This document shows, piece by piece, positions 4,348 to 25,218 of a stretch of 44,387 nt of DNA. The stretch's first letter is position 1. Each line of letters starts with the position of its first letter. The notes below the pieces were generated by a model. It saw only the letters and a list, made by a program, of their open reading frames with translations. It had not been told where the DNA came from and did not search any database. The position numbers and the translations under genes are program-made. The DNA lies in assembly GCF_003612555.1 (NCBI RefSeq), contig NZ_RAZF01000023.1:1-44387 (forward strand), written 5' to 3'. The DNA is from Acutalibacter sp. 1XD8-33 (GTDB lineage: Bacteria > Bacillota > Clostridia > Oscillospirales > Acutalibacteraceae).

Positions 4348-4366
4348 ATTGATCACCATCCTTATG

Positions 4367-4676: not shown

Positions 4677-4709
4677 ATGTGTGCCCCCTCCTTTAAGGAG
4701 GCATCTCGT

Positions 4710-8867: not shown

Positions 8868-8889
8868 TCCACTCCCCCTATGCGTATTT

Positions 8890-8911: not shown

Positions 8912-9023
8912 ATAATACCCTCAAAAAGCCCAAAAAGTCGCCTTCAAAAAGACAACTTTTTCGGGCTCTTTTCAATTTTTTACCACAAAGGGCAGATTGT
9001 CACCATCGGGCAGAGGGCCGTAA

Positions 9024-9034
9024 GCGCGAAGCGC
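9024..9034. repeat. GCGAAGC mini-hairpin
   Basis: GCGC (9024-9027), GAA, GCGC (9031-9034). It has the same GCGAAGC core as the elements at 7391-7472, 7982-8045 and 13264-13278. It lies just after the truncated small gene at 9051-9143. Confidence 0.4.
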
Positions 9035-9050
9035 GTCGCCTGAGCCTCCT

Positions 9051-9143
9051 TCAAATTCCGGGTTTGGTCTGATCCTGTAGGGCGGCTTTTTTCTCCAGTA
9101 GGGCTTGGTAGTCGCGGACCATGTCTAGCAGTTCCATGTGCAT
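9051..9143 (-). pseudogene. Truncated small phage coiled-coil protein
   Basis: The 30-residue frame MHMELLDMVRDYQALLEKKA continues for 10 residues, ending QTKPGI. It resembles the N-terminal coiled coil of small phage recombination-region proteins that normally run to 80 or more residues. The start overlaps the stop of the upstream gene (TGATG), as in phage operons. A GCGAAGC hairpin sequence follows its stop directly, so an insertion or deletion there probably cut it short. Identification is tentative. Confidence 0.4.
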
Positions 9144-10045
9144 CACCTTTCTCCATGTAGAATTTTGTCCCAATCCAGCGCCTGGCCGCAGTGGGAGCAG
9201 TATCTTGCGGTTCCTGTATAGGTAAAAGCGCAATGACAAGTGGGGCATACGTATCGCAAGTAAATCTGATCTTGAATGTCATTGGCCTTTATAGGCTCTT
9301 GCGGTATCTGCTTATTGATGGCGTCGTCAAGCCGTTCTGCTGTTCGGTTCACCTCGGGGCTCTCCCTGCCGTTGCGGCAGTCTACGGCACACACAGCCCA
9401 TTCCTGCTCCGCCGTAAGGGTGGGGGCCTGCTCCGGCTGATAGCCTATGCCCCCGGCCTTTGCTCCCGCGTAAGGCTTAAAGCCTGCCGGCCGGCTAGCT
9501 GCTCCCACAGCGCCGCCCTCCAGCTGGGCCACGCTGTCCCGCTTCAGCTGGTTGTAGATGCCCCGCTCTTTCTTGCCCAGGGTGACTATACGGTTTTCGA
9601 AGGTCTGCTCGGGCAGGTCCACCGCTTCCTCTTTGGTGACGCGATAGGCGATGCTGTGTTCCTTGCGGATGAGCTCGTCCATGTCCCGGTAGCCCACCAC
9701 CTGCTTTTTGTTAAAGCCGCCCATCACCGCATAGCGGCTGCGGAAGGTGTAGTAATTCTGGCCGAAGATGGTGGGGTCTAAGAATCTGTACTGGCTGAAA
9801 ATGTCCATGGCGTCATTCTGCACCGGGGTGCCGGAGAGAATCAGCTTGTATCGGGCCTGGTCGCCCAGGCGGTGCATGGCCTTGCTCTGGGCGGCGTCGT
9901 GGGTCTTGATGCGCTGGCTCTCGTCGCGGATGACCCATTTTGTACCCCGCGCCCATAATAGCTATGGCTGTTAAAGTTTTCCCGCAGCCGGTTTGCCCAT
10001 CTCAAATAGTAGACCGAACCCTTTGCCTTGTGCAGGATTGCAATT
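9143..10045 (-). pseudogene. SNF2-family DEAD/DEAH helicase with internal deletion, fused to a zinc-ribbon tail
   Basis: The Walker A stretch GCGKTLTAIAIMGAGYKMG is read in one frame near 9935-9990, preceded by GLLFEMG in another. It is joined directly to DESQRIKTHDAAQSKAMHRL (about 9880-9935) and then YKLILSGTPVQNDAMDIFSQ, FGQNYYTFRSRYAVMGG and RVTKEEAVDLPEQTFENRIV. About 100 residues between motifs I and II and the whole second RecA-like domain are missing. The C-terminus instead carries a zinc ribbon, CPTCHCAF with CSHCGQALDW. Such helicases are common near phage primase genes. The 244-residue frame from 9877 could still be translated but lacks ATP-binding motif I. Confidence 0.65.
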
Positions 10046-10053
10046 TTGAGATG

Positions 10054-10460
10054 TCATTGGGCATCACCTCCTCTACGTTTTGCGTATGGAAAATACACGC
10101 CGCTTTCCTCCGGATGGGCATGGTGGTAAGCAATATGTTCTCCGGAATTCGCAAAAACCAACAAATTTTCTGGTCGATTGTCCTGCTTGTTGCCGTTGAC
10201 AGGTCTCTGCTGCACCTGAAAGTGTTTTCGGTTCGGATGATACGGTACCGTGCCATATTGGGGTTATGTCCCCGTTTCCCTGCGCTATGTCCTGGTGCAT
10301 TCACCACCTCGTCCTTTTGGTGTCTGGATCACATTCCTAATCTTGCCGACTATTTGCCCGAAAGATATTTTGTGAACTGTGCTCCAGCGTTCCAGAATGC
10401 ACGTGCAAAGTGCATCCAATATTTGCGCCGCAAATATGACATGACTTTCGCTTATACTGA
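10054..10460 (-). pseudogene. HNH endonuclease remnant
   Basis: The segment 10054-10263 contains NGNKQDNRPENLLVFANSGE followed by HIAYHHAHPEE, which looks like the C-terminal part of a phage HNH homing endonuclease. Further upstream, in another frame, CHICGANIGCTLHVHSG and NIFRANSRQD (about 10337-10445) resemble the N-terminal zinc-knuckle part of the same kind of protein. Stops separate the two, so the gene is broken. It ends about where the serine-recombinase fragment begins. Assignment is from short motifs and is moderate. Confidence 0.45.
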
Positions 10461-10469
10461 AAAGATGGT

Positions 10470-10695
10470 AAGAATTGAATATCCGTCCACTCCCAGAACG
10501 ATGCCTCCATCGAACAGCAGGTCGCGGACTGTGAAGCCTTTGCCCGGATGAATAATCTGCAGGTAGTCAAGGTCTACGCCGACCGCCACCTGACCGGCGC
10601 CAACGATAAGCGCCCAGAGTTTCAGCGAATGCTCCGGGAGGCCGAGCGAGGGCATTGGCAGTACGTCATCACCTGGAAAGTTGACCGCTTCGCCC
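10470..10695 (+). pseudogene. Serine recombinase N-terminal fragment
   Basis: The frame reads SQNDASIEQQVADCEAFARM and then NNLQVVKVYADRHLTGANDK, PEFQRMLREAERGHWQYVIT, WKVDRFAR, the resolvase catalytic domain of large serine recombinases without the first beta strand that carries the active Ser. It breaks at about 10695 and continues as unrelated sequence. The C-terminal part of a similar enzyme lies right next to it on the opposite strand, so an inversion or composite rearrangement occurred here. Confidence 0.75.
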
Positions 10696-10697
10696 GG

Positions 10698-10862
10698 ATG
10701 GACTTCTCCTGTTCCTCTCTCCGGCACATCAGCCAGTCCTCTTGAAAGCCCTCCACATTGGCCCGGATATAGTCCGTTACAGCCCGGATGCGCTCAAGCA
10801 CCACATCCCGCAGAACATCCTCCCGGATATAGTGCGCCGAACAGGTCCCCCGTCCGCTTTTG
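10698..10862 (-). pseudogene. Serine recombinase C-terminal fragment, inverted
   Basis: The minus strand reads KSGRGTCSAHYIREDVLRDV, VLERIRAVTDYIRANVEGFQ, EDWLMCRREEQEKSI. This is the zinc-ribbon end and start of the coiled-coil domain of TnpX-type large serine recombinases (compare GECSMHYIRDIVLEQLVLEA in the intact enzyme at 28930-30627). It abuts the N-terminal fragment in opposite orientation. Neither fragment can make an active enzyme. Confidence 0.75.
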
Positions 10863-10882
10863 ATGTCGACAAAACGGGAAGA

Positions 10883-11149
10883 TCAAACCGCCTCCTTATC
10901 CGAAAAAATCATACGGCGCATCAGGTTGGGCAGCGGTTCGGCTCCATCACATTCCGTCTCAACGATATACCAGGTGTTTCCAATCTTGCGCGTCACTTTG
11001 CAGGAGAACGGGTTCTGCGGTTCATGGTCCCGATACCATTCCTCAATGAAATCGGCGGGCGGTTCAAAGATAGGGTCAAAGCAGCTCTCAATGTCGATAG
11101 GCAGGTTCAGAAGTTCTTCAAAGGTTAGCAGTTCAAAGTTTTTCGTCAT
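10883..11149 (-). CDS. TnpW-like transposon-encoded protein
   Basis: 88 residues, beginning MTKNFELLTFEELLNLPIDI. The C-terminal part, CKVTRKIGNTWYIVETECDG, matches the core of the TnpW family (a small beta-rich protein of Tn4451-like elements, role unknown). A GGAGGTACT site sits directly before the ATG. It lies next to serine-recombinase fragments, as TnpW does next to TnpX-like genes, and is probably a surviving piece of the same element. A second TnpW-like gene lies at 30713-30997. Confidence 0.6.
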   Translation of the reverse strand: MTKNFELLTFEELLNLPIDIESCFDPIFEPPADFIEEWYRDHEPQNPFSCKVTRKIGNTWYIVETECDGAEPLPNLMRRMIFSDKEAV

Positions 11150-11178
11150 AGTACCTCCATAATCCGTAGTCTGTTGGG

Positions 11179-11415
11179 TCAGTCAGCTTTACGCCGGACC
11201 CACTGAATGTCATAGCCCAGCGCATCGGCAAGCTGGACAGCCTCCTTGTAGCGGAGGGACTCCCGCTGGAGCTTGTTGGACAGGTTGGACACGCTGTCCG
11301 ACCAGCCGTACACATCGGAGAGTACGTCCACCACTTCCTGCATGGTCATCCCCTGGCGCACAATGTACGCCTTGATCTCGTTCCTCAAATCGGATTTCAA
11401 AGTTTTTTCCCTCAC
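11179..11415 (-). CDS. Small HTH-like (Cro/XRE-type) regulator
   Basis: About 78 residues, from a GTG at 11415: REKTLKSDLRNEIKAYIVRQ, then GMTMQEVVDVLSDVYGWSDS, VSNLSNKLQRESLRYKEAVQ, LADALGYDIQWVRRKAD. The pattern of short helices with a conserved WSDSVSNLSNKL turn suggests a lambda-repressor-like DNA-binding fold. Starts are uncertain: GTG at 11415 and a TTG seven codons downstream are both possible, and an upstream ATG at 11544 is less likely. Probably a local regulator of the mobilizable element. Confidence 0.55.
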   Translation of the reverse strand: MREKTLKSDLRNEIKAYIVRQGMTMQEVVDVLSDVYGWSDSVSNLSNKLQRESLRYKEAVQLADALGYDIQWVRRKAD

Positions 11416-11750
11416 TTCCTGATGAATTTGATTTTGTATTCCGCAAAGTATTTTTACGGAATAATGAAGATTTTCGCAGTTGTAATTTCCGCTCAGATTT
11501 GCTATGATGAAGCCCAGATCACAAAGGCCACCTGTCCACTTCACAGTTTCGTGGGATACCCGCCGGAACCGTGGGAAAGACCGCTTGTCCGCAAAGCGGC
11601 TACACGGTTTGGTAAATCACCAACAGGTGTAATCCGTTCACTGCTGAACAACCTTTTTCACGAAAATCACAAGGATTGAATTTTACCCAGCTTTTTAAGG
11701 TCAAATCAACATGACCGCCTATAAAAAGATAAAGGCAAACGCAAAACTAT

Positions 11751-11804
11751 CCGTACATACGTACATCAGTACAGGGGGCTGTGTACTCGTGTACGCATGT
11801 ACGG
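11751..11804. repeat. Long GTAC-rich inverted repeat
   Basis: Two arms of about 23 bases (11751-11773 and 11780-11804) pair with few mismatches around GGGGGC. The outermost eight bases, CCGTACAT and ATGTACGG, match perfectly. GTAC occurs six times in 54 bases. It lies about 160 bases past the 3' end of the MobV relaxase gene. It may be a protein-binding or recombination site of the element; no T-run suggests a terminator. Confidence 0.6.
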
Positions 11805-11960
11805 ATGATTTCATTTCTCTTTTATACCGCGCCCTCCCGCTGTGGTTATGAGCAAATTTGAAAAAACCGGGCTAATGGCATGACAGCCCTGTTCCAAAAA
11901 ACATGACAGAGGGAATTTCGGTAGCCGCTGCCAAAATTCCCTCTGTCAGTGTAATAGCAA

Positions 11961-13214
11961 TCACCGCTCCATGCTGTGCCTTGTTGCGGCCTGCGCCGCC
12001 CTGCGCTCCGCATCCTGCCTGGCAATCTCGGCTCTGCCCTGTTCCAGCTTGGCGAGGACGGACTCTCTGGCTTTCTCCTTGATCTGTTTGGTGGCGGCGG
12101 CTCTGATTTCCGGTTTTCGCAAAACTGCCTGCACTCTGGCAAGCACCTTTTGAGCGGCTTTGCGGATCAGCTCCTGCGCCTTTCCCAGCACCTTGCCGAT
12201 CAGCCCTTTCTCCGCTGGGGAATAGCGCCGCTCCGGGGCCAGACACCAATCCTTGTAATCGGAGACGATCTTCTCATCCTGCAACTGCGTCTCGGCGCGG
12301 ACGGCATCGGTCACAAGCTCCACGGCTTTGTCGTAGGCTATTTCTGTTACCTCGTCAATCAGGGCCTCGGCATCCTCCAGCCGGAGCGACACGGATTCCA
12401 GCTCTCGCGATTTTTCTTCAATCGCCGTCTCCTGCTCTGTAATCAATTTCTTCTGCTTCTGGATGATATAGTCGTTCTTCTCCAAATAGCTGCGCCCACG
12501 GTTGCCGGGGTCAGGTTCTTCCTCCACCGCCAGACCATGCCGTTTGCAAATATCAAACAGAATGACACGGCAGACCCCATCGAAAACCATCTTCCGGTTG
12601 TTGGTGCGCCCCTGCTTTTTCTCCGGGTCAGGCAATTCAAACCCCAAAGCCTCCAGCGCCTTTTCCTGTTTCGGCTCCACCTCGCCATAGCGGTTCACAT
12701 AGTCGAACACATGGCGCTCATGGATATGGGGCGTGGCCTCGTCCAGGTGGAGCGCCCAGTCAATGACATGGACGTGTTCCCCGAAGCGGCGCTCCAACTC
12801 CATCATAAATTTTCCGACAATTTCCAGAAGCACATCCGGAGAAACGGAGTCCTCCATGGTGCCGATCTGGTAAATCGTTTCCTCCGGACAGAAGCGTTTG
12901 TCGGCCAGCAGATCATCCACGCTCCGGTCACGCTCAGAGTGGCGGCGTTCGGCGTTCCGTTCATGCTGGCCATCAAGGTAATCTGAGTAGCGGTCCAGAT
13001 AAAAGGCCCGCTCCACATCCGCGAAGGAAACCTCCCCATCCTGCTGGGCCGGATAGGTCGCGCCCCGGAAACAGTCCCAATAGATGTTCTGCTGAATGCG
13101 CTCACCGTCAATGTGGCCGGCGTGTTCGGTATCGAAGGTTCTGTCGTTGTGCGTTGATTTATAGACTCCGCTTTTTCCGGCTCTTCCGTTGTGCCGGGTC
13201 AGTCTTTTTGCCAT
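11961..13214 (-). CDS. MobV-family (Pre/Mob) plasmid recombination/mobilization relaxase
   Basis: 417 residues. The relaxase domain (about 1-200) carries WALHLDEATPHIHERHVFDY, the HxDExxPHxH-type metal and catalytic region of MOBV relaxases, which nick oriT and stay bound to the DNA end. The C-terminal half is a long charged coiled coil. AGGAGAG precedes the ATG at 13214. A 13-base perfect inverted repeat (13308-13342) lies about 95 bases upstream, a typical oriT position. It likely mobilizes the element with help from another conjugation system. The frame is intact. Confidence 0.85.
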   Translation of the reverse strand: MAKRLTRHNGRAGKSGVYKSTHNDRTFDTEHAGHIDGERIQQNIYWDCFRGATYPAQQDGEVSFADVERAFYLDRYSDYLDGQHERNAERRHSERDRSVDDLLADKRFCPEETIYQIGTMEDSVSPDVLLEIVGKFMMELERRFGEHVHVIDWALHLDEATPHIHERHVFDYVNRYGEVEPKQEKALEALGFELPDPEKKQGRTNNRKMVFDGVCRVILFDICKRHGLAVEEEPDPGNRGRSYLEKNDYIIQKQKKLITEQETAIEEKSRELESVSLRLEDAEALIDEVTEIAYDKAVELVTDAVRAETQLQDEKIVSDYKDWCLAPERRYSPAEKGLIGKVLGKAQELIRKAAQKVLARVQAVLRKPEIRAAATKQIKEKARESVLAKLEQGRAEIARQDAERRAAQAATRHSMER

Positions 13215-13263
13215 TTTGCTCTCCTTCCTGTTTCTCGTTTTTGCTGTTCCGGGAGTGGCCAGG

Positions 13264-13278
13264 GGCGGCGAAGCCGCC
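13264..13278. repeat. GCGAAGC hairpin
   Basis: GGCGGC (13264-13269), GAA, GCCGCC (13273-13278): a perfect 6-base stem with a GAA loop. It shares the GCGAAGC core with elements in the prophage. Confidence 0.5.
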
Positions 13279-13307
13279 GAATCTGGGTGCTTTGCGCCAG
13301 ATAATAA

Positions 13308-13342
13308 CCCAGTAAAGTGACGCAGGGCATCACTTTACTGGG
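13308..13342. promoter_or_regulatory. Candidate oriT for the MobV relaxase
   Basis: CCCAGTAAAGTGA (13308-13320) and TCACTTTACTGGG (13330-13342) form a perfect 13-base inverted repeat around CGCAGGGCA. It lies just upstream of the relaxase gene. Known MobV origins (for example pMV158) have inverted repeats with AAAGT/ACTTT arms at the nick region. Confidence 0.55.
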
Positions 13343-13839
13343 CCAAGGGCTTCACCCTCTGGACACCGGAGCAGGCGCTGCCGCCCTGCACCCGGCCCTC
13401 GTCGTCGCAAGCTCCGTATCCCTCGCTCACTCCGCTGCTCCTCCTCTCCCCACCGAAACCGCTGCGCTGGGTTTCGGCGGGGACCCCAGCGTCCACCTCT
13501 GGACACTGACCAGATGCTCGCCGCTCTGGACTTGGCGCAAAGGGCCTGCCGCCCTCTGCACTCCCGCCGTTCTCCCCGAAACCCGTTCCTGCCCCTGTTC
13601 TCTCAGCGGCGTTTCGTTCCCTTTGATACGCTTCATGCGATACTTCACCAGAGAACATATCTGTTTCGGACGGTCATTCTTTTTTCAAGCTGCAATGCTG
13701 TGTGGCACAAACATCGTAGCAGAAAAAAGGCCGCTCTCCCGTATATCCAAGAGGTAGGAAATCCGGCCTGAAAACTGGATATTTCCACGCTCTCGGAAAT
13801 GTGGTAGAATGGCAGTAAAATCAGATGGAGGGCAGCGAT
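13343..13839. other. Intergenic stretch between oriT candidate and XRE gene
   Basis: GC-rich sequence in the first 300 bases. Frames are open on both strands but low-complexity, with no recognisable protein and no good ribosome binding site. I see no supported gene. The last 100 bases hold the promoter region of the XRE gene. Confidence 0.5.
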
Positions 13840-14646
13840 ATGTCTTTGACGATACAGGAACGGATAAAAGATTTGCGGGTGGAGCGCAAGCTGACGTTGA
13901 AAGAGCTTGCGGAGCAAACGGGGCTGTCCTCGTCCGCACTGGGCAGCTACGAGGCGGACGACACCAAGGACATCAGCCACTATGCTCTCATCAAGCTGGC
14001 AAAGTTCTACGGTGTGACCGCCGATTATCTTCTGGGCCTGACAGAAACAAAGCGCCACCCAAACGCTGATCTCGCAGACCTGCATTTGAGTGACGCTATG
14101 ATTGATGTGCTGAAAGCGGGGCGGGTGGATACTGCCCTGCTGGGGGAATTGGTAGCGCATCCGGATTTTATAAAGCTGCTGGCCGATATTCAAATTTATG
14201 TAGAGGGCATCGCCGCCATGCAGATACAAAATCTGAACGCATGGGTAGATGTGGCACGGGCTGAAATCGTGGAGAAGTATCAGCCGGGAGAGAACGACAG
14301 AATGACCTATCTTCTGCAATCGGCCCATGTGGATGAGGGAGAATATTTCACCAGTCGGGTGCATCGTGACATTGACGCAATCATGGATGATATGCGGGAG
14401 GCACACCGGGGCCGGAGTGACAGCGCACCGGAAAACTCTGCTGCCGAAGAATTGAAACAGGACTTGGAGGAGGTTGCTCGTTTCAATGGCAGTAAGCTGG
14501 AACAGCTTATCATGCTGTTCTGCAAGCAGACAAAGCTCCGCTACAACAAATTGACCGAGGAAGAAAAACAGTGGCTGGCACGAATTGCCCAGAAGTCGGA
14601 ACTGCTAAAAAGCTCTGTTCCGCAGAGGGGGAAGAAACGGAAATAG
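13840..14646 (+). CDS. XRE-family transcriptional regulator with long C-terminal region
   Basis: 268 residues from ATG 13840, chosen because GGAGGG lies seven bases upstream; an ATG at 13825 would hide that site. The N-terminus has a classic HTH: IQERIKDLRVERKLTLKELA, EQTGLSSSALGSYEADDTK, YALIKLAKFYGVTADYLLGL. The C-terminal 190 residues are helical with no recognised enzyme motif. Such regulators commonly control mobilizable or defence elements. It ends at a bidirectional terminator shared with the convergent XRE gene. Confidence 0.8.
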   Translation: MSLTIQERIKDLRVERKLTLKELAEQTGLSSSALGSYEADDTKDISHYALIKLAKFYGVTADYLLGLTETKRHPNADLADLHLSDAMIDVLKAGRVDTALLGELVAHPDFIKLLADIQIYVEGIAAMQIQNLNAWVDVARAEIVEKYQPGENDRMTYLLQSAHVDEGEYFTSRVHRDIDAIMDDMREAHRGRSDSAPENSAAEELKQDLEEVARFNGSKLEQLIMLFCKQTKLRYNKLTEEEKQWLARIAQKSELLKSSVPQRGKKRK

Positions 14647-14668
14647 GGATTTTTGCTCCGCAAATATG

Positions 14669-14711
14669 AACAGCTCTACGGGTCCTGCCTCCGCAGACCT
14701 GTAGAGCTGTT
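14669..14711. terminator. Bidirectional terminator between two XRE genes
   Basis: AACAGCTCTAC (14669-14679) pairs with GTAGAGCTGTT (14701-14711), with an inner GGGTC/GACCT pairing. It lies between two convergent genes. Confidence 0.7.
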
Positions 14712-14913
14712 ATTCATCGGGGACATACTCGGCGATGTCCTCCAGGCGGCAATCTAGTGCCGAACATAATTTGTTCAGTGTCTTTGTTTCCATGTTGTCA
14801 TTGGCCTGCAAACGCCGGACGGTCTTGCTGTCAATGCCGCACTTTTCTCGGAGCTGGTAGGTGGAGACGCCTTTTTCCTTCATCACATCCCACAGCTTAT
14901 CAAAAATAATCAC
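14710..14913 (-). CDS. Small XRE/Cro-type repressor
   Basis: 67 residues from a GTG at 14913, chosen because GGAGGGTGA sits six bases upstream; the ATG at 14940 would hide it. The sequence is one HTH domain: FDKLWDVMKEKGVSTYQLRE, KCGIDSKTVRRLQANDNMET, KTLNKLCSALDCRLEDIAEY. It is transcribed divergently from the SLOG-family gene, and an inverted repeat covering that gene's -10 box lies between them. It probably represses the SLOG gene and itself. Confidence 0.75.
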   Translation of the reverse strand: MIIFDKLWDVMKEKGVSTYQLREKCGIDSKTVRRLQANDNMETKTLNKLCSALDCRLEDIAEYVPDE

Positions 14914-14930
14914 GACATCACCCTCCCTGA

Positions 14931-14989
14931 TTGACACCAATCAGTATGGGGGTTATAATCTCCAGTGTTAAGGGGATATAACCCCCATA
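14931..14989 (+). promoter_or_regulatory. Consensus promoter with operator for the SLOG gene
   Basis: TTGACA (14931-14936), 17 bases, TATAAT (14954-14959) is a perfect sigma-A promoter pointing to the SLOG gene. TATGGGGGTTATA (14945-14957) and TATAACCCCCATA (14977-14989) form a perfect 13-base inverted repeat with centres 32 bases apart; the left arm overlaps the -10 box. This is a good operator for the neighbouring XRE repressor. Confidence 0.8.
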
Positions 14990-15017
14990 ATCAAATTAAA
15001 GTCAGGAGAGAGTTGTG

Positions 15018-15518
15018 ATGATTGAAAACCGCTGTGCGTTCACGGGGCACCGCCCAAAAAAGTTTCCATGGGGCTATAATGAGGCAGACGCTCGTTGCGT
15101 CGCACTGAAAAAGGCACTTGCCGCAGAGATTGCCAAGTTGGTGGACACTGGATGTACGGACTTCTACTCTGGTATGGCAGAGGGAGCAGATACCTGGGCA
15201 GCTATAGCTGTTCTGGCCTTGAAAAAAGAAAATCACGCGCTGAAGCTCCACTGTGTCCTGCCCTACGAGGAACAGGCGGACGGGTGGTCAGCTTCAGCGC
15301 GGGAATTATATTTTTCTATTCTGGAGCAGGCGGATGAGGTTGTATATGTGAGCCGGGAGCACCGTGAGGGCTGTATGCTAAAACGGAATCGCTATCTGGT
15401 CAATCATGCTGCCTGTCTGCTGGCTGTCTACAACGGAGAGTGGCGGGGAGGAACGGCGATGACAGTAAGGTATGCACAAAAGTTAGGACGAAAAATTATT
15501 GTGCTTGATCCGACTTAA
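15018..15518 (+). CDS. SLOG-family (DUF1273/YpsA-like) nucleotide-binding protein
   Basis: 166 residues from ATG 15018 (AGGAGAG seven bases upstream). The N-terminus CAFTGHRPKKFPWGYNEAD and the inner DFYSGMAEGADTWAAIAVL match the DUF1273 branch of the SLOG superfamily, Rossmann-like proteins thought to bind nucleotides or nucleic acid ligands; the C-terminal KRNRYLVNHAACLLAVYNG is also conserved. SLOG domains act as sensors in some nucleotide-based defence systems, while YpsA relatives act in housekeeping or stress. It is under a tightly built repressible promoter and precedes the restriction gene by about 100 bases, so a shared role is possible but unproven. Confidence 0.75.
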   Translation: MIENRCAFTGHRPKKFPWGYNEADARCVALKKALAAEIAKLVDTGCTDFYSGMAEGADTWAAIAVLALKKENHALKLHCVLPYEEQADGWSASARELYFSILEQADEVVYVSREHREGCMLKRNRYLVNHAACLLAVYNGEWRGGTAMTVRYAQKLGRKIIVLDPT

Positions 15519-15624
15519 AGAGCCATAGTGAAAGTTGGAGTATGGTGTATTGTTTTTTGCCCCTTGATGTGGTATCATTATTTCATGTATATGTGCGACA
15601 AATTTTGTAGACGAGGGTATTCCC

Positions 15625-18144
15625 ATGAACTCAGATATTATCTCAAAACTTAAAACTGGTCCTGAACAACAGCTCGTTATTGGTCCATTAGTCCAAAGAT
15701 TCTTGGACAAGGGGTGGAGACTAGGACAAATGATGTTTGGGCGCACAGAGTGGCGAGTTCCTAAAACTCCTTCAGAGGCATCTAAACGCGAGAGCGGTTC
15801 ATCATATGACGGTTTCCCTGTCGATATTGCGGTTTTTGAAAGTGAACAGACCTGCGGAGATTATCGGCATCTGTTGTTTATTATTGAGGGAAAACAGCCA
15901 ACTATTGACGTTGGCTTACAACAGTTGGAAATCTATTTGTCGTTGGAACCACATGTAAAATTGGGAATATGGGCCAACAATGCAGATCCATCGGCATTAA
16001 GCCTTACTGTTTATAAAAATATGAAGGGACTAACGGTCCCTAAACAAACCTGTGTATCTGACTTCCCTTCTATTGGAGCCGAACTTTCACCTACCGCAAC
16101 CGCGCTCAAATTTTCTAATTTGATTCCACTCACAAATGACACTCTTCGGAAAGCTTTTAGCGATTTGCTCGACAAGGTCGTTGCTCAAGACAGCCGTGTA
16201 ACTCGTCGCGAAGAACAGCTTGACCAGTTATGTAATTTATTATTGTTGAAATTGGACAGTGATAAAAAGGCAAAAATGGCATCGTCTTCTGAAGTGGCAT
16301 TTAGAGTCTGTGCGACAGCAAGCGCAACAGGAGCTTATATTAGGGAGAGATTTGAGGAATTTCATGATGTATACCCTGACATTTTTGTAACGGAATCTGA
16401 AAAGGAGATCAGATTTAGCGATACCACAATTTATGATTGCGTAGAAAGGCTTGCTCCACTAAAAGTGCTTGATGCAGGGGTCGAATCTGTTTCGGTTGCG
16501 TTTCAAGTATTGCGGAGTGCAGCACTTAAGCAAGAAGAGGGGCAGTATTTTACACCTTCACCAGTAATTGAAGCGGCTATAAAACTAATGCCAATAACAT
16601 TAGAAGATATTATAATCGATCCTGCTTGTGGGACGGGCGGTTTCTTGGTTCAATGTCTTATTGACATTAAGAATCGATATCCGGGCGATGAGAAAGAGGT
16701 TTCAAAGTGGGCGCAGCTTCATCTTTTTGGTATTGATAAGGATGCTATTGGTATTAAGTTAACCAAAGCTATAATGCAGATATTGGATGATGGATCAGCT
16801 CATTGCGTAAGAGGTGACAGTGTGTTGACACACACTTGGGAAACGCAATACCCTCACCTTAAGTCAAATCAGTTTAACAATGGACGTTTCAGCAAGGTTT
16901 TTACTAATCCACCTTTTGGCGCTCCCTTGAAAGTCAAATATTCAGATGCAAAGAAAGCTGGCTTAAGTATTGTGACCTACATTGAAACGGGCAAGGATAT
17001 TGAACTTGGACTAGCAATGTTTAACCGATGCCATGACCTGCTTAAGGTGGGCGGCATGATGTGCATTGTATTGCCAGAAACATATTTTTTCTCACCATCA
17101 TATGCGTATGTTCGGGAGTGGGCTAAGACACGGTTGAAGCCTATATGTGTTGCCAATGTACCGATGGAGGCGTTTCAAGGATTTTGTCGGGCAAAGACTA
17201 ACTTATATATATTCCAAAAGATTGCTCCAGACTCTACTTTCGGTGATGATGAAGTAGTCGATTTTATTAATCCGCAAACTTGTGGTATCTATAAAAATGG
17301 TAGCCAGCGATTTAAGGTCGATGTAACAGGTAGTCGAACCAGCGTAATTGATAACGAATTGCTGGATATGGCAAAAGAATGTTCTGAGGGGCATAGCCAA
17401 TTTGCAGTACCGCTTACTTCGATTTATCAGAAAGATGTGTTAGTTCCGCAATACTACGATATGTCATATAGAACAGGCTTTGAACAACTAAAAGCAAAAT
17501 GGGGCTTTTGTGAAATCTCATTAGGCGACTTGATAGAGCGTGGTATTATCGAAATACAAGGCGGTCATGGAAGTCCAAGCAATGACCTACGAAACGGGAC
17601 AATCCCTTATGTTAAAGTCTCCGATATTCGCAATTTAAGAATTAATGTTAATCCAACAAACCTGATTCCAATTGAGTTGGCAAGGCGATTTTGGAAAACG
17701 AATGACGGACGTAGCAATTTGAAAGGTTGGGATTTAATATCTCCCAGTCGGGCAAGCAGCAATATTGGAGAGTTCTCAATTTTAGTTCCTGGCGAAGAGC
17801 AAATTGTATTGACCAAGGAAGTGTTTGTTCTGAGGGTACAACCAAACGATTTGGGTATTGATCCCTTTTATATGTTGTGGGCATTGGCGCTTAGGGAAGT
17901 TAGAGATCAGTGGCGAAGAGTTACTTTGATGCAGACAAATAGAGAGGATGTTGGGAAAAGATTCTGTGAGGTTTGTATTCCTATGCCGTTGTCTCCCAAA
18001 TGGGCAAAAGAAGTATCATGCTCATTTAGAAAATATTTTGAAAGCATTGCAAAGTCGAAAGAAACTTTTGTTAAGGAAACTCAAGAAGATCGTTTTGACT
18101 ATATTGCATCGGTAAGTGCGTTTTCTGATAAAATCTCAGATTAA
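15625..18144 (+). CDS. Single-chain restriction-modification enzyme (HsdR-N nuclease + N6-adenine methylase + specificity domain)
   Basis: 839 residues. The N-terminal HsdR-N-like nuclease has the PD-(D/E)XK residues D67 (FPVDIAVF), E88 and K90 (IIEGKQ). The methylase core has GQYFTP (306-311), DPACGTGGF (332-340) and NPPF (428-431), the gamma/N6-adenine order. The C-terminal part (about 640-839) contains GTIPYVKVSDIRNLRINVNP and resembles one type I target-recognition domain. Together this is a type IIG/IIL-like enzyme that cuts and methylates DNA. The gene is AT-rich against its GC-rich neighbours, implying transfer. It is intact. A variant used as a modifying or sensing partner of the TIR genes downstream is an alternative. 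Confidence 0.85.
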   Translation: MNSDIISKLKTGPEQQLVIGPLVQRFLDKGWRLGQMMFGRTEWRVPKTPSEASKRESGSSYDGFPVDIAVFESEQTCGDYRHLLFIIEGKQPTIDVGLQQLEIYLSLEPHVKLGIWANNADPSALSLTVYKNMKGLTVPKQTCVSDFPSIGAELSPTATALKFSNLIPLTNDTLRKAFSDLLDKVVAQDSRVTRREEQLDQLCNLLLLKLDSDKKAKMASSSEVAFRVCATASATGAYIRERFEEFHDVYPDIFVTESEKEIRFSDTTIYDCVERLAPLKVLDAGVESVSVAFQVLRSAALKQEEGQYFTPSPVIEAAIKLMPITLEDIIIDPACGTGGFLVQCLIDIKNRYPGDEKEVSKWAQLHLFGIDKDAIGIKLTKAIMQILDDGSAHCVRGDSVLTHTWETQYPHLKSNQFNNGRFSKVFTNPPFGAPLKVKYSDAKKAGLSIVTYIETGKDIELGLAMFNRCHDLLKVGGMMCIVLPETYFFSPSYAYVREWAKTRLKPICVANVPMEAFQGFCRAKTNLYIFQKIAPDSTFGDDEVVDFINPQTCGIYKNGSQRFKVDVTGSRTSVIDNELLDMAKECSEGHSQFAVPLTSIYQKDVLVPQYYDMSYRTGFEQLKAKWGFCEISLGDLIERGIIEIQGGHGSPSNDLRNGTIPYVKVSDIRNLRINVNPTNLIPIELARRFWKTNDGRSNLKGWDLISPSRASSNIGEFSILVPGEEQIVLTKEVFVLRVQPNDLGIDPFYMLWALALREVRDQWRRVTLMQTNREDVGKRFCEVCIPMPLSPKWAKEVSCSFRKYFESIAKSKETFVKETQEDRFDYIASVSAFSDKISD

Positions 18145-18156
18145 GGAGCGACTTTT

Positions 18157-18285
18157 TTGCTGTTCACTCGTATTGATGAACAGAGGGACGAAGCTACGGT
18201 AACGGCTTGAGGTTTTGTAGGCAAGCTGAACCGACTTGTATGGCCTGGTTAATGAAAATGTACCAGATACTGTCGAAATCAGGAT
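18157..18285 (+). pseudogene. Possible broken small gene between the restriction and TIR genes
   Basis: AAGGAG (18143-18148) overlaps the stop of the restriction gene and is followed eight bases later by a TTG (18157). The frame LLFTRIDEQRDEATVTA stops at 18208. The next frame continues LRFCRQAEPTCMAWLMKMYQ and ends SKSG. A frameshifted small gene would explain this, but I recognise no family and it may be plain leader sequence. Confidence 0.25.
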
Positions 18286-18308
18286 AAAGAAAGCGTGGGG
18301 TAAGTATA

Positions 18309-19091
18309 ATGCTGGATAAAGGGTTGCTGGATGAATTTAGCAATCAACACCTAAAGATAATTATTAATAACAGATTACAAGGGTTGAATCCACAGTACGC
18401 AGAGGTTTTTCTTCGCAAACTGGAGACTGTATATCACACATATCTTTCTGTGTTTCCAACGCAGTGTGCGCAATTGGATTTGTTATGGGATTTACGAAAA
18501 GCAGGTGCAATTACGTTTGAAAATACAATACGTGCAATGGATGTTTTGGTAGGCGATATGAGTAAACGTTTTGACAAAGCGTACAAGCCGCCCAAGCTTT
18601 TTATAAGTCATGCCCAAGCTGATAGTATAATTGTAAAAAAATTTGTTTCATTACTTGAGAGAATCGGCATAAAATCTGAACACCTTTTTTGTAGTTCCAT
18701 AGATGGATACGATGTTCCCCAAGGAGCTGGAGACATTTACGATTACTTGCGAAATGAGATGACTAATGATGGTCTCTTTGTAATTATGATGCTATCGAAG
18801 AATTATTATGCAAGTAAAGTGTGTCTGAATGAAATGGGTGCCTCTTGGGTTAAGCAAGCAGCCTATCAAGTTATTTTGTTACCAGGGTTTGATTATTCTA
18901 AAATTAAGGGTGTAATTAGACCGACTGAAATGTGCTTTAGGTTAGATGATTCTGTTCACAGAGCATATGATATGAATGAATTGAAGGAGAGAATCTTGAA
19001 GCATTTAGGTTTACCTACAATTGATTCTACACAATGGGAGCGGAAACGAGATGAATTCTTTTCTGAGATTGATGCGCAACCTAAAGTATAA
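18309..19091 (+). CDS. TIR-domain protein, probable NADase effector
   Basis: 260 residues. The TIR domain spans about 95-235: KLFISHAQADSIIVKKFV (FISH at 98-101), LFCSSIDGYDVPQGAGDIYD, LFVIMMLSKNYYASKVCLNE with the expected catalytic glutamate E175 in CLNEMGASW. Bacterial TIR domains cleave NAD+ or make signalling cyclic ADP-ribose variants during abortive infection (Thoeris, Pycsar, TIR-STING, short Argonaute systems). The N-terminal 90 residues are helical and may sense or oligomerise. The gene is AT-rich, 165 bases after the restriction gene and 58 bases before the DUF4062 gene on the same strand, suggesting one operon. No transmembrane segment is seen. Confidence 0.8.
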   Translation: MLDKGLLDEFSNQHLKIIINNRLQGLNPQYAEVFLRKLETVYHTYLSVFPTQCAQLDLLWDLRKAGAITFENTIRAMDVLVGDMSKRFDKAYKPPKLFISHAQADSIIVKKFVSLLERIGIKSEHLFCSSIDGYDVPQGAGDIYDYLRNEMTNDGLFVIMMLSKNYYASKVCLNEMGASWVKQAAYQVILLPGFDYSKIKGVIRPTEMCFRLDDSVHRAYDMNELKERILKHLGLPTIDSTQWERKRDEFFSEIDAQPKV

Positions 19092-19149
19092 TATTAAGCG
19101 ATGAGCGATTCGATCAAATCAGTTTATAGAATTCAGGGGAGGAAACAGG

Positions 19150-20691
19150 ATGGCAAAAAATGTGACTCAATATGATTTGCTTATTTCTTGTCCTGGTGAT
19201 GTTCAGTCAGAAGTTGAAATTATCAAACAGATTGTAGATGATTTCAATGAAAGATATTCTGATACATTGGGTATTTCTTTAAGGGCAAGGCACTGGAAAA
19301 AGAGTTCCTATGCTCAGTCTGGGGGAAAGCCGCAAGCTCTATTGAATGAGCAATTTGTTAAGCAGTGTGATGCAGCTGTAGCCGTGTTTTGGACACGCTT
19401 TGGAACGCCTACTGACGAATATGGATCAGGTGCGGAAGAAGAAATTGAACTTATGCTTGGGGCGGATAAACAGGTTTTTATGTATTTTTCAGACAAACCC
19501 ATTCCGCCATCAGCACACGATCCAGCTGAGTATGAACGAATAAGTGCTTTTCGTGAAAAATACAAAGACAGAGGAATCTATTTTACCTATACGTCTGATG
19601 AAGAGTTTACCAAATTGTTTACCGCACATTTGGCGCAACATTTTCTTAGCATTCAAAAGGTAAATGAGATAAAAGATTTGCGCACACCTCGACTGCTTCT
19701 TAGAGGGATAAATGAAAACGGGATGTTGTGTGATAGCGTTCCCGTTCATAGTTTTACACTCAATTTTGAAAGAAACGCTAACAATTACCTCGAAGCAATC
19801 AAGCAAATGTACCAAGACATTGCTGCACTCCAAGTAGGTTCATATTCTACACAGCCAGTAAAATCAAATTCTCCTGCTGAACGCTATTTGGAGTCTTTTT
19901 ATCCCCCTATAACAATAAAAGATGAGCGCAAAGAGTTTTTGACCAAAATGGCCTCTGCTTTTAATTTGTCTTTACCTGATGATTTTTTTGAACTTGGCAA
20001 TTTATCAAAAGATAGCTTAGGGAGCCTTGCGATTGGGGGGCAATATAACTTGAGGGGGACAGAAACTGAAAAGAGAAAATATGAATTAATTCAATCGCTC
20101 TACGACTCTATAATTGAATTTTCTAAGCAGAGTCGTATCGAAGATACCTTTTCCAATATAAAATGCTTAAAGCTTGCTATTGAAAATGATGGAACGGCCG
20201 TAGATGAGGATATAGAGATAACAATTACGCTATCCATACATGATCTGTTGCCCATTGACGAATTTCCAGTATTGGACAATTCATCAAAAAGCTATTTACT
20301 AAATGAAGTTGATATGGATGAACTATTTTGTATCCCAAGCACTGCGCAATATATGGAGTATGAATCTAGCATGAAACCGCTAGTCGGCGGGAAATATGCT
20401 CAGCCTACAAGTATAAATACCTTCCCATTCATAGGTGGAGAAGCAGATTATTCAGAAGATTATGAAGATGAGTTATTCCGTATTTTCCCCTACGATATTT
20501 ATCCTAGCGGGAAAGATTACATCTGCAAGTTAAAAATCGATTATATTAAACACCACACAGTAGTGGCTTTCCCAACGCCACTTCCGTTAAAAGGTATTCC
20601 GGCAGAGATACCATATACCATTACTTCAAAAAATGCTGCTGAAATAATTCAAGGCACTATAAAAGTATCAGCTAACATAGGCGGAGAGTAA
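19150..20691 (+). CDS. DUF4062-domain protein, candidate partner of the TIR protein
   Basis: 513 residues after GGGGAGGAAACAGG. The N-terminal DUF4062 domain (about 6-120) is seen in YDLLISCPGDVQSEVEIIKQ and then FWTRFGTPTDEYGSGAEEEI with QVFMYFSDKPI. This domain often heads predicted conflict-system or STAND-like proteins and has a TIR/SLOG-like Rossmann fold. The remaining 390 residues have no NTPase or nuclease motif that I can see, and end in beta-rich segments. It is the last gene of the AT-rich run and is followed directly by a strong terminator, which supports a shared operon with the TIR gene. Its biochemical role is unknown. Confidence 0.7.
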   Translation: MAKNVTQYDLLISCPGDVQSEVEIIKQIVDDFNERYSDTLGISLRARHWKKSSYAQSGGKPQALLNEQFVKQCDAAVAVFWTRFGTPTDEYGSGAEEEIELMLGADKQVFMYFSDKPIPPSAHDPAEYERISAFREKYKDRGIYFTYTSDEEFTKLFTAHLAQHFLSIQKVNEIKDLRTPRLLLRGINENGMLCDSVPVHSFTLNFERNANNYLEAIKQMYQDIAALQVGSYSTQPVKSNSPAERYLESFYPPITIKDERKEFLTKMASAFNLSLPDDFFELGNLSKDSLGSLAIGGQYNLRGTETEKRKYELIQSLYDSIIEFSKQSRIEDTFSNIKCLKLAIENDGTAVDEDIEITITLSIHDLLPIDEFPVLDNSSKSYLLNEVDMDELFCIPSTAQYMEYESSMKPLVGGKYAQPTSINTFPFIGGEADYSEDYEDELFRIFPYDIYPSGKDYICKLKIDYIKHHTVVAFPTPLPLKGIPAEIPYTITSKNAAEIIQGTIKVSANIGGE

Positions 20692-20693
20692 AC

Positions 20694-20730
20694 AAGCGCG
20701 GCAGATCATGGGAATCTGCCGCGCTTTTGT
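20694..20730. terminator. Terminator closing the defence cassette
   Basis: AAGCGCGGCAGAT (20694-20706) pairs perfectly with ATCTGCCGCGCTT (20714-20726), followed by TTG. It serves the DUF4062 gene and, on the other strand, the DUF6061 gene. Confidence 0.85.
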
Positions 20731-20975
20731 TAGTCCAAAGGGGAGTAATCTGTCACATTTTTCAGATACTCTTCCGGGTTACCATTGAGAATCAAATCAG
20801 CATAACCAATTGGATCATTATAAATCAGATAATCCAGCTCTGACTGCTGATACATATTTTTAGCGACCTCGTTCTCCACAGCTATGCAGTCAATAGAGAT
20901 TATGCTACCATCGGCGAATTTCAGCTCTACGCAAACAGTGTCCATGTTGAACTCGCAGGAAAGTAATGATGCCAT
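20730..20975 (-). CDS. DUF6061 family protein
   Basis: 81 residues. NMDTVCVELKFADGSIISID followed by VENEVAKNMYQQSELDYLIY is typical of DUF6061, a small acidic protein common on mobile elements in gut Clostridia. AGGAGG lies about ten bases before the ATG at 20975; an internal ATG ten codons in is possible. Function is unknown. It faces the defence cassette across a shared terminator. Confidence 0.75.
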   Translation of the reverse strand: MASLLSCEFNMDTVCVELKFADGSIISIDCIAVENEVAKNMYQQSELDYLIYNDPIGYADLILNGNPEEYLKNVTDYSPLD

Positions 20976-21269
20976 TAAATAGGAACCTCCTCTTTAATCA
21001 TCCTGAGCAAATTATTGGTGTTCTGCACTACGGACTGCCAACTGATGATGTTAAGTTGAGATTAGTTCCTTATCACTATCAAGCCAAGGAATTCCGGGAT
21101 TTTTTCGTGTTTTGGGGTGGTCGTATGCGGTCTGGATTGCCGCTCCTTTTTGCCTGTTTTGCGCCTCATTTTCGCATCTGGTCGTATCCGTTTCTAACCT
21201 TTCCGTCTGGCACATCATCAATAAATCATCAAAAATCTGGGGTGTTCCCTCCTGTTTCGCTGGCCTCGG

Positions 21270-22492
21270 TCATAAACTGAATCCGTCCGTTATCCCCTGT
21301 AGGCGGGTGGTGTCTTTCTTGACGTAGTACATCTCGGTTATCTGCGAGGTGCTGTGACCTAAGAGGTCGGCTACTTGGCGGGGTGAGAGTGCCATCAGTG
21401 TCCCATCCGGCTGGCGGATACCGTTCACTAGCGAACTTCCAAAAGTGTGTCTCAAGGAATGTAGCCCCTTCTGCTCTATCCCTGCGGCCTTGAGAATCCG
21501 GTAGTACCGTTTGCGGAAGTTCACAGGGCGGGTGTAGCCGCCCTTCTCGTCGCTTACAAGGGGCGAATTTGGCCCGAAAAACCGTTCCCTGCGCAAAAAA
21601 ACTCCCTTACCGCCTGCTCTGCGGCCTGATTTAGGGGCACACGGCGCTTACTGGTGGCTGTTTTCGTTTTGCCAACCTTCACTTCTCTGCCGGGGACGTA
21701 GTCTGTCCCCTCGTGCCTGCACACCTCTTTGACGTTCTGGCGCACTTCAAGGTATCTACCTTCCAGATTGATGTCGCTGTTGAGCAGGCCAAGCAACTCC
21801 CCTGTGCGTAGGCCGGTGTTCAGCATGAGGATATAGGCCGCTGGCTGCTGGTACTTGGGCTTGCCGTTTGAAAATTTGCTGAACGCCTCGGCCTTGAATC
21901 TCTCGATTTCCTCTGGCGTAAACACCGTGACAGTTTCTTGCGTGGGTAAATCTTCCTTGTTCTGCGCCGCCATGAAGTTGGATTTCTTTATCATGGGTAC
22001 GCTGTTCATGGGATTCTTGGCGAGAATTTCCCGCTGGGTGAGGTAGCGGAAATATTCGTTGAGCACGATGTACACCTTCTTGACCGTGGTGTAAGCGTAG
22101 CCTTCACCCAACCAGTAATTGAGCACTTCCTTGAGGTCAGCGGCAGTGATGTCTCCTACTATCTTTTCACCAAGCAGAGGAAAAATCTGGTGTTCCACCG
22201 TACATTCGCAACGGTCGTAAGTTGTGCGCTCCGCCGAGGGAAATTTGAACACTTGGAGCCAGTGGGTCATGCTCTCCTTGCGTGTCTTGTGGGATTCATC
22301 GGACTCCTGCAATTCTTCGTTAAAGGCCGCAATGTAATCGGTCATTTTCTTGGTGACTTCTGCCTTGGTCGTGCCTGAGAAGGATTTGCGCTTGCGCTCC
22401 CCTTTCTCATCCATGTACCACACCGTGCCGCCCCAACGGTCATCCGTTCGCTTAAAGGCTTTTCCGTTTGTGAGCAATTTCTTCTGAGCCAT
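21270..22492 (-). pseudogene. Tyrosine site-specific integrase, frameshifted in a homopolymer
   Basis: The N-terminal 312-residue frame (22492 to 21554) carries the SAM-like core-binding domain and the first catalytic Arg in LNTGLRTGELLGL, plus the beta-hairpin VKVGKTKTATSKRRVPLN. The C-terminal frame (to 21270) carries HSLRHTFGSSLVNG, LLGHSTSQITEMYYVKKD (His and the nucleophile Tyr). The two frames meet at a T7 run on the coding strand (A7 at 21595-21601); adding one T restores EFFLRRERFFGPNSP. Tn916/ICE-type integrases of about 410 residues excise and integrate mobile DNA. It could be a real decay event, slippage, or an assembly error. Confidence 0.85.
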
Positions 22493-22589
22493 CTGTCAGC
22501 CCTCCTTTCTCAGCACACCACAATACCACACCTTGCCGGGAAAGTCCACTGACATTTTTCTTACTTTTCTTGTTGCTTTGAAAAATCCC

Positions 22590-22619
22590 TTTCTTTGTTT
22601 ATGCGGCGCAAATTTTGAG
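22590..22619. repeat. Direct repeat copy 1
   Basis: TTTCTTTGTTT, two bases, then GCGGCGCAAATTTTGAG (22603-22619). The same sequence with a one-base linker is at 25190-25218. Copy 1 lies about 100 bases upstream of the integrase start, where attachment sites are often found. Confidence 0.65.
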
Positions 22620-23129
22620 CGCCGAGCAAAGCCCATTCAACTCCCCTTTAGGGGCAGGGGGAGAGCCGGGAACTCCCGGCTCCTACGGACGGCGTATAGC
22701 CGGACGCTGTGCTTGCCCTGCCCTGCCCAAAGGCAGGTTATCTCGTGCATATACTTGCACTTCCTCTCGCATAATTGCGCCTTCTTGACCGTTTTCTTTG
22801 TCTCAAAATATGGATAATCTCTCACTTTCCTCTGCGTATCTGCACTAAAGAAACCGTTACTCACAAATCGCCATAGATGCTCCACAACAGCGCTTATCGC
22901 GCTTTCTCCGCTTGAAAATCGACCATGAATAGTTTTCTCAAAACTGTGCATGGTCACCCCTACAGTCGCTTTTCCTAACAAAATCAATAAAGTTAGAGTT
23001 ATTTCCACAAGAAGCAATCTGTACGTTGTTGTTTGACACTCGCATAAATGTTCTAATATCAAATTTTGTCACAAACTTTTTTGCTCGTAGCATCTCAATC
23101 CAAAAGGAGCTCTCCCGTATTGAAACACA
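22620..23129. other. Intergenic stretch between integrase and Sel1 genes
   Basis: It contains a GC-rich near-perfect palindrome, GAGCCGGGA at about 22664-22672 against TCCCGGCTC, preceded by a CCCCTTTAGGGG stem, a sequence type seen as dispersed repeats in gut Clostridia. The remainder is AT-rich with no supported gene on either strand. Confidence 0.4.
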
Positions 23130-25189: not shown

Positions 25190-25218
25190 TTTCTTTGTTT
25201 GGCGGCGCAAATTTTGAG
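25190..25218. repeat. Direct repeat copy 2
   Basis: TTTCTTTGTTT, one base, then GCGGCGCAAATTTTGAG (25202-25218), matching copy 1 at 22590-22619 in the same orientation. The two copies bracket the Sel1 lipoprotein gene. The rest of the 25080-25441 gap shows nothing else. Confidence 0.65.

Follow-up and report, generated by a model that had tools for sequence, protein, structure and literature searches.

Several described anti-phage systems share parts with a run of candidate defence genes in a 44,387-nt contig of Acutalibacter sp. 1XD8-33 (NZ_RAZF01000023.1, positions 1 to 44,387; this whole stretch is called the window). Thoeris pairs an effector with a C-terminal SLOG domain (ThsA) with a TIR protein (ThsB). 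According to the accessible parts of PMC12847820 and PMC11984713, the 94-residue N-terminal bundle of SpbK binds the clip domain of the YonE portal, and this portal activates the NADase; the product is N1-cyclic ADP-ribose (N1-cADPR), whose receptor is given there as unknown (PMC12847820). The available text of a 2026 preprint (PMC13174449) presents DUF4062 as a TIR-like NADase, of which a Klebsiella member (KpSwz, Swarozyc) is portal-activated via an auxiliary domain, the Bas14 portal being reported to activate the DUF4062 NADase. YpsA-like SLOG domains have been linked to cyclic ADP-ribose sensing (PMC9503650, accessible part). The parts of the locus described here are related to such systems, while their grouping, together with a C-terminal module shared by several proteins, looks new: a preliminary description of this DNA had held the exact gene set to be undescribed, and the set, made of parts of known kinds, was indeed found only here. 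Among open-licence texts on DUF4062, SpbK, SLOG/YpsA and TIR with restriction-modification (R-M), no title or abstract opening among those listed describes the set or the module.

On balance, we favour reading positions 14659-21002 as a mobile, cargo-swapping anti-phage cassette that lies beside prophage-like genes and holds three separable layers. Its features, followed by two of the flanks, are:

14710-14940, minus strand: gene of a 76-aa XRE/Cro-type helix-turn-helix (HTH) regulator, divergent from SLOG, with PHROGs transcription-regulator matches
14931-14959, plus strand: sigma-70 consensus promoter TTGACA-17-TATAAT, 12/12 match, preceding SLOG and the downstream genes
14945-14989, no strand: 13-bp inverted arms TATGGGGGTTATA / TATAACCCCCATA, starting at 14945 and 14977, the left arm overlapping the -10 box
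15015-15518, plus strand: SLOG gene, 167 aa, YpsA family (Pfam PF06908, 2.7e-28)
15625-18144, plus strand: R-M-S gene, 839 aa, with PD-(D/E)xK nuclease, N6-adenine methylase and putative C-terminal specificity domain
18309-19091, plus strand: TIR gene, 260 aa, SpbK-like NADase with four predicted N-terminal helices and a TIR domain with E175
19150-20691, plus strand: DUF4062 protein gene, 513 aa
19150-19704, plus strand: TIR-like NADase domain of the DUF4062 type, about aa 1-185, E96/E97/E98 invariant; putative function taken from KpSwz by analogy
19882-20688, plus strand: C-terminal module of the DUF4062 protein, aa 245-513, unnamed, defined by hhalign and hidden Markov model (HMM) matches
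20694-20726, no strand: two-way terminator hairpin between the convergent DUF4062 and DUF6061 genes
20730-20975, minus strand: DUF6061 gene, 81 aa (Pfam 1.1e-41), forming the right edge of the cassette
13825-14646, plus strand: second XRE gene, 273 aa, part of the left flank
21270-22492, minus strand: integrase, two overlapping open reading frames (ORFs)

The SLOG, R-M-S, TIR and DUF4062 genes stand in a row on the plus strand at the places first described, and only the 76-aa XRE gene, which had been included in the same-strand run, proves to lie on the other strand. The AT-rich character of the run was seen again (GC content 41% for R-M-S, 37% for TIR and 38% for DUF4062, versus about 52% for SLOG and the 273-aa XRE gene), and so was the strong terminator closing it, the hairpin at 20694-20726 being the longest among the 10 terminator-like sites of 14.5-21.3 kb.

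DNA to the left of 14647 is 88% identical on another contig of the same genome (G000:C11), and this similarity ends at 14647. Both ends of the element recur in a same-genus genome (G027, contig C7): 14659-15499, with XRE and SLOG, at 84% DNA identity, and 20725-21002, with DUF6061, at 82%. The cargo between them consists there of an EcoRI-type adenine methylase (2.5e-105), then a GmrSD_N/HNH protein (1.2e-17), and thirdly a PHP/ABC-type protein (PADLOC PDC-M49A, 7.2e-275). As the same ends flank a different operon, 14659-21002 behaves as a cassette with changeable cargo. DUF6061 also occurs near SLOG relatives in other arrangements (G011:C113, G027:C9). Bounding repeats were discarded: nothing in 20600-22700 matched back to the left end, and a second comparison gave words of 9-10 bp only. 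The integrase, thought at first to border the cassette, does adjoin it, but the matching blocks around it start at 21088-21090 in all seven fetched same-genus loci with homologues, which marks it as a separate unit rather than a cassette member. The window scan found no tRNA, and no Rfam family at the gathering threshold.

The head of the cassette is found with other cargoes as well. In the genus set of 29 genomes, near full-length SLOG relatives with at least 59% identity occupy seven places: the window (in genome G000), G027:C7, G027:C4, G000:C10, G007, G016 and G014 (G011:C113, with 68% identity over residues 96-166 only, was left out). Same-strand defence-like genes follow SLOG in four of the seven (the window, G027:C7, G027:C4 and G000:C10). 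The divergent HTH/SLOG pair thus heads four different defence-like operons in the genus, two of which join R-M genes to the TIR subtype of the window. The run in G000:C10 comprises a 386-aa protein without match, a protein with weak mad8 and HerA matches, and, by eye, an HSP90-like ATPase ORF. A homologue of the 76-aa XRE protein accompanies SLOG in G027:C7 (96% identical), G016 (84%) and G007 (53%), and no HTH partner was found beside SLOG in G014. Among 20 promoter-like sites in the region, where 15.0 were expected, 14931-14959 is the only one to match at 12/12 positions. The inverted arms, a probable operator judging from their place on the promoter, recur as a pair, again with an offset of 32 bp, in G027:C7 and G016 (exact in L118, one mismatch in L119) and as a single arm in G014 (L121); no pair was found in G007, in G027:C4, or beside SLOG in G000:C10 (L120, L148, L147). 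Promoter match, operator-like arms and conserved pair together suggest that XRE and SLOG would control the operon from one strong promoter, with repression that may be relieved on infection.

Within the R-M-S enzyme, the residues D67, E88 and K90 and the motifs DPACGTGGF (at 332) and NPPF (at 428) are exactly as had been claimed. D67, E88, K90 and NPPF are invariant in all four aligned sequences, window included, as is the core of methylase motif I (D332 P333 A334, G336 T337, G339 F340), with C335 and G338 varying. In this alignment the C. faecale gene, which is in two ORFs, is represented by the first ORF alone, and a Thermus copy (L070) with a stop in its translation was dropped. HSDR_N_2 matches two of the homologues (8.3e-18 and 2.6e-14) and not the window protein itself, and the nearest solved relative of the family is RM.BsaXI (PDB, family profile, 1.4e-42). 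The nuclease and methylase parts of the presumed nuclease-methylase-specificity fusion are thereby borne out, whereas its specificity part is without a family match (no Pfam match up to E 1; PDB matches at chance level, 0.4 and 0.71). Because of its position, and because this C-terminal region is conserved, it is labelled a putative specificity domain. Five other R-M-S loci were examined, four on plasmids (27-45% identity) and one on an IMG/VR contig (55%), none of them with a TIR, DUF4062 or SLOG relative in the flank examined. In the class sample of 391 genomes, R-M-S matched 141, mostly in the methylase part only. On a plasmid of Aerococcus urinaeequi (L072), an R-M-S homologue is followed at a distance of about 0.5 kb by a predicted optrA gene.

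The TIR protein is close to SpbK: the PADLOC spbK profile matches residues 90-255 (1.6e-59), phmmer against the PDB finds SpbK (9phb, 5.3e-28), and Foldseek with the AlphaFold2 model ranks the same entry first (1.9e-10, TM 0.80 on target), while ThsB is matched weakly (3.7e-7). E175, named in the preliminary description, lies within LNEMGA and is invariant in both alignments (6/6 and 4/4, window included); N174, E175, G177 and W180 correspond to N191, E192, G194 and W197 of SpbK. The model places N-terminal helices at 4-21, 28-45, 50-64 and 70-91. TIR matches were obtained in 14 of the 391 class genomes, and wide neighbourhoods were examined for five of the 13 besides the window's own. At eight distinct loci outside the genus the match is confined to the TIR domain or its vicinity, starting no earlier than residue 85, and the flank examined carries no SLOG, R-M-S or DUF4062 relative (L080 repeats the TIR gene of L079, and the pair was counted once). 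In the genus, TIR matches are limited to three of 29 genomes, namely the window, G027:C4 and a broken copy in G022. This broken copy has no SLOG or R-M-S relative in 16 kb; by eye, a transposase-like ORF comes next and a cytosine methylase-like ORF about 2.5 kb further, in another run. On two metagenomic viral contigs (L079, L080), terminase-like genes, joined in L080 by portal-like genes, adjoin an SpbK-like TIR gene of the opposite strand, and both an SpbK-like TIR gene (L078) and a DUF4062 gene (L091) occur shortly upstream of HNH-/terminase-like genes of viral contigs (all by eye).

Taken alone, the DUF4062 protein of the window falls below the Pfam threshold for DUF4062 (14.6 bits, cut-off 24.7), but the same profile matches all 14 family members at E up to 1 (best 8.1e-5) and PADLOC PDC-S60 matches the protein at 1.3e-24, which supports the first naming. 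The glutamate cluster E96-E98 is invariant in the 14 members. Relatives of full or nearly full length, at 32-52% identity, were examined at 15 distinct loci, some of them on IMG/VR contigs, one on a plasmid, and some next to genes that look type I R-M-like by eye; a locus cut by the contig end in its DUF4062 part (L007) was not counted. None of the 15 has a TIR gene or a close R-M-S relative. In the class sample the protein was matched in 12 of 391 genomes, ten times in the DUF4062 domain and twice (G212, G267) in the C-terminal part only, and wide neighbourhoods were examined for three of the 11 other genomes (G072; G443, via the same sequence in L004; G267). A protein of G457 (L125) joins a DUF4062 domain to the receiver domain of a response regulator (6e-10).

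Looser searching brought out proteins that match only the C-terminal part. In G076 the domain preceding this module is a CAP12-type TIR (PF10137, 2.2e-5); in G267 it is an endonuclease domain, which we take to be of the Cap4 type (PADLOC CBASS effector 'Endonuclease', 3.9e-48); hhalign aligns the module to these two proteins over 245 and 276 columns, respectively, with probability 97. It was also found in five of 398 genomes of a phylum sample, with DUF4062 at the N-terminus in G000, G072 and G687 and a new endonuclease-type N-terminus in G789 and G748. An HMM built from ten DUF4062-family C-termini alone recovers all four proteins with other N-terminal domains (1.1e-36, 1.1e-22, 2.4e-16 and 1.2e-13), each across roughly 245-255 residues, against 0.16 for the best-scoring of 1,000 shuffles and four reversals, and the HMM of the DUF4062 N-terminus misses the same four (5.7 or worse; its own best shuffle 0.034). 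Neither Pfam nor NCBIfam (up to E 1) nor PDB sequences yielded a match to the module, and Foldseek with the C-terminus gave no convincing match among the best 50 per library, the candidates being rejected as Rossmann-like proteins or for low TM-scores. Genes near the module proteins include, in G748, Gabija and AbiO/Nhi-like genes and, in G789, a type I specificity gene, with no cyclase match among the nine neighbour proteins scanned.

Because it is placed opposite three kinds of killer domain, the module (aa 245-513) is a probable phage-sensing part. A bolder reading, possible but doubtful, would have an undescribed sensing module re-plugged on DUF4062, CAP12 TIR and Cap4 endonuclease, combined with a swappable, infection-responsive HTH/SLOG head whose SLOG protein, where the cargo includes an SpbK-like TIR, may act as receptor of its cyclic ADP-ribose product. 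If the module is a sensor, suicide proteins of both the NADase and the nuclease kind would rely on a single recognition domain, phage recognition in single-gene suicide systems could be tested by domain swaps, and new systems could be sought by way of the module. If the XRE/SLOG head responds to infection, it would show how a defence operon stays silent and then turns on, and would make a candidate receptor for the N1-cADPR of SpbK-type TIR enzymes.

In the cassette reading that we favour, the R-M-S enzyme would form the first layer, methylating host DNA at its motif and cutting unmethylated phage DNA, as the catalytic motifs suggest. The SpbK-like TIR protein may then bind a phage structural protein, most likely the portal, through its N-terminal helices, oligomerise and hydrolyse NAD, so that the infected cell would die. 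The DUF4062 protein would do likewise as a third layer, its TIR-like NADase domain presumably being driven by a different module, the C-terminal one. These layers are co-located and probably co-regulated, and need not act on one another.

A closer bond between restriction and TIR has to be weighed at a second locus, G027:C4, where a SLOG gene (59% identical), with a divergent HTH gene, opens a same-strand run that ends in TIR. Between SLOG and TIR lie a 965-aa ORF, helicase/res-like by eye (PADLOC: weak mad8 only), a 275-aa PDC-S32-like protein (2.7e-29) and a 673-aa methylase (type II 3.9e-56, type III 1.2e-44), whose ORF the TIR ORF overlaps. This TIR is 50% identical to that of the window over residues 1-256, N-terminal domain included, and its match to the spbK profile starts at residue 46, equivalent to position 90 of the profile. 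One TIR subtype thus follows two R-M gene sets that are unrelated but similarly headed, and the link of SLOG, R-M and TIR is seen twice. The anticodon nuclease PrrC guards a type I enzyme, and the TIR protein might similarly watch the restriction enzyme or its DNA products and kill the cell when a phage beats restriction. Such a guard would suit a TIR that twice ends a run behind R-M-like genes, all the more since none of the eight TIR loci of other subtype has an ORF of at least 150 aa with an amino-methylase motif, or a SLOG gene, in the flank examined (the same scan recovers the methylases of the window, L148, i.e. G027:C4, and L118). The R-M enzymes of the two loci are nevertheless unrelated, so no common protein interface is evident; R-M-S does without TIR in all five other loci, and only two intact TIR loci of the subtype were found, the third (G022) being broken with a transposase beside it. 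We therefore consider a guard system unlikely.

Separability is also what the co-occurrence counts indicate. The two-gene suicide arm and its tie to the DNA-modifying enzyme, as initially proposed, find no conserved counterpart: among the 391 class genomes, TIR occurs in 14, DUF4062 in 12, and both in the window's own genome only; without it, 13 and 11 of 390 genomes would overlap by chance in 0.37, and zero were observed. Each cargo gene stands without a close relative of the other two at the 15 DUF4062, eight TIR and five R-M-S loci, the single extra R-M-S match, at 29% (L003), being to a type I-like methylase. In the locus counts L084 and L085, duplicates near the gene, make one entry, while the near-identical proteins of L005 and L006 and the closely related prophage-like contigs L086, L088, L089 and L090 make separate ones. 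A conserved four-gene system is thus rejected, since the genes are not together elsewhere and the parts match characterised systems, and what survives is a cassette of separable layers. TIR and DUF4062 do each match a characterised NADase family, although they form no conserved pair; and the idea that methylation sets self while TIR and DUF4062 kill is supported in part, having in its favour the defence-like cargo, these NADase families and the twice-seen link, and against it the fact that the genes are separable elsewhere.

Several points weigh against the cassette reading itself. Its DUF6061 bracket is known from two cases only, the window and G027:C7. The next gene after SLOG lies on the opposite strand in three of seven loci (G007, G016, G014), and the SLOG genes of G027:C4 and G000:C10 are paired with another HTH protein, of 112 aa (101/112 residues alike between the two), which is no relative of the 76-aa XRE protein. 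A type I-like methylase ORF on the other strand near the G027:C4 operon makes this place look like a wider island. Linked TIR and DUF4062 genes were found in the window's genome only; in G027, which is outside the class sample, TIR (C4:139066) lies 162 kb from two adjoining DUF4062 fragments (L063, C4:301939-302276, 62-65% identical to residues 1-114), unlinked. Gaps of 106 bp (SLOG to R-M-S), 164 bp (R-M-S to TIR) and 58 bp (TIR to DUF4062), with weaker promoter-like sites inside the run, leave a single transcript uncertain. For the TIR layer, residues 1-90 of the model have low confidence (10-residue pLDDT means of 30-67), and a direct sequence match of this N-terminus to that of phage SpbK was rejected, single-sequence hhalign giving nothing (probability 0.1).

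A chance pile-up, in which unrelated defence genes would have gathered at an insertion hot spot under no common control, could explain why TIR and DUF4062 do not co-occur elsewhere among the class genomes, why the parts stand without each other at other loci and why the integrase next door is split; the conserved XRE/SLOG head, the strong promoter match and operator-like arms, the same-strand cargo behind SLOG in four of seven loci and the reuse of the cassette ends in G027:C7 all speak against it, and it seems less likely still than a guard. Least likely is a Thoeris-like signal loop with transcriptional output, in which SLOG would read N1-cADPR or ADP-ribose from the TIR protein, relieve XRE repression and raise the operon: although SLOG and the TIR subtype share one operon-like run at two loci (the window and G027:C4), SLOG and XRE are divergent with operator-like arms, and the accessible parts of PMC12847820 and PMC9503650 give SpbK an N1-cADPR product of unknown receptor and tie YpsA-like SLOG domains to cADPR, the SLOG pair also heads TIR-less cargo (G027:C7, G000:C10) and stands without cargo in three loci.

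The cassette thus favoured has prophage-like surroundings. PHROGs profiles match portal (5e-47), virion structural protein (6e-19), primase/helicase (2.3e-147) and helicase (9.8e-29) genes in the left flank, and DNA of 13800-22500 has no match in phage records. An IMG/VR viral contig of 20,689 bases, at an offset corresponding to window 3-20691, is identical to window 7625-20691 over the 13,067 bases compared, so it probably comes from the same genome. The portal-like and virion structural genes (3373-4359 and 1680-2123, minus strand) are 14-15 kb from both NADase genes; with putative portal-sensing NADases so near, the prophage, if live, would need a portal of its own that escapes them. A HicB-like antitoxin gene occupies 4677-5087 (plus strand) in the same flank. 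On the other side, the integrase ORFs of 312 and 108 aa overlap, and several same-genus copies form a single ORF of about 405 aa. Two or three integrase copies, some partial, are spaced about 3.5-9 kb apart in G022, G001 and G010 (L112-L114, L123), with differing genes between them, a layout like that of integrative units in tandem arrays. Between the copies of a 29-30 bp direct repeat at 22590-22619 and 25190-25218 lie about 2.6 kb with a single gene, for a Sel1-like repeat protein (by eye), and related repeats adjoin integrase copies in other genomes.

Compared with known systems, the TIR protein is nearest to SpbK of ICEBs1 from Bacillus subtilis, with a TIR domain about 40% identical in structural alignment, the catalytic glutamate in the same NEMGA-x-W motif, and about 92 preceding residues predicted as four helices in a low-confidence model; it differs in an N-terminal sequence that is not recognisably that of SpbK, and in a gene position behind R-M genes. 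Like Thoeris, the cassette holds a TIR protein and a YpsA-like SLOG protein in one operon-like run, but here SLOG forms a 167-aa protein of its own, next to an XRE regulator, rather than the C-terminus of an effector, and PADLOC gave no ThsA match for six window proteins among the matches listed (25 of 52 families for R-M-S). The DUF4062 protein recalls Swarozyc (KpSwz) in its N-terminal DUF4062 domain with conserved glutamate cluster, its single gene with a C-terminal auxiliary part and its defence-like setting. In KpSwz the auxiliary domain is of the HTH/winged-helix type. The C-terminal part in the window has no PDB sequence match, nor has the family, and it is a module shared with other killer domains. 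Relatives of this module carry at their N-terminus the killer domains of the CBASS effectors Cap4 and CAP12/TIR, but the module itself has no Pfam, NCBIfam or PDB sequence family and no cyclase among its scanned neighbours; the six window proteins likewise have no CD-NTase (cyclase) match in PADLOC among the matches listed, and the locus is not classed as CBASS. The methylase part of R-M-S resembles MAD2 of MADS (NCBIfam 9.4e-43; PADLOC mad2 5.8e-28), yet membership was rejected at 146 bits against a cut-off of 720, and of other mad genes PADLOC gave, for the six proteins and among the matches listed, a weak mad1 HTH match (0.021) only. With Type IIG/IIB R-M enzymes, of which RM.BsaXI is the nearest with a structure, R-M-S shares a nuclease and an adenine methylase in one chain, to which it adds a fused, presumably DNA-reading region without match to a known specificity family. 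Finally, as in the R-M islands with RptR-type repressors (PMC12255303, accessible part), a small gene for a presumed repressor heads a defence island that contains R-M genes.

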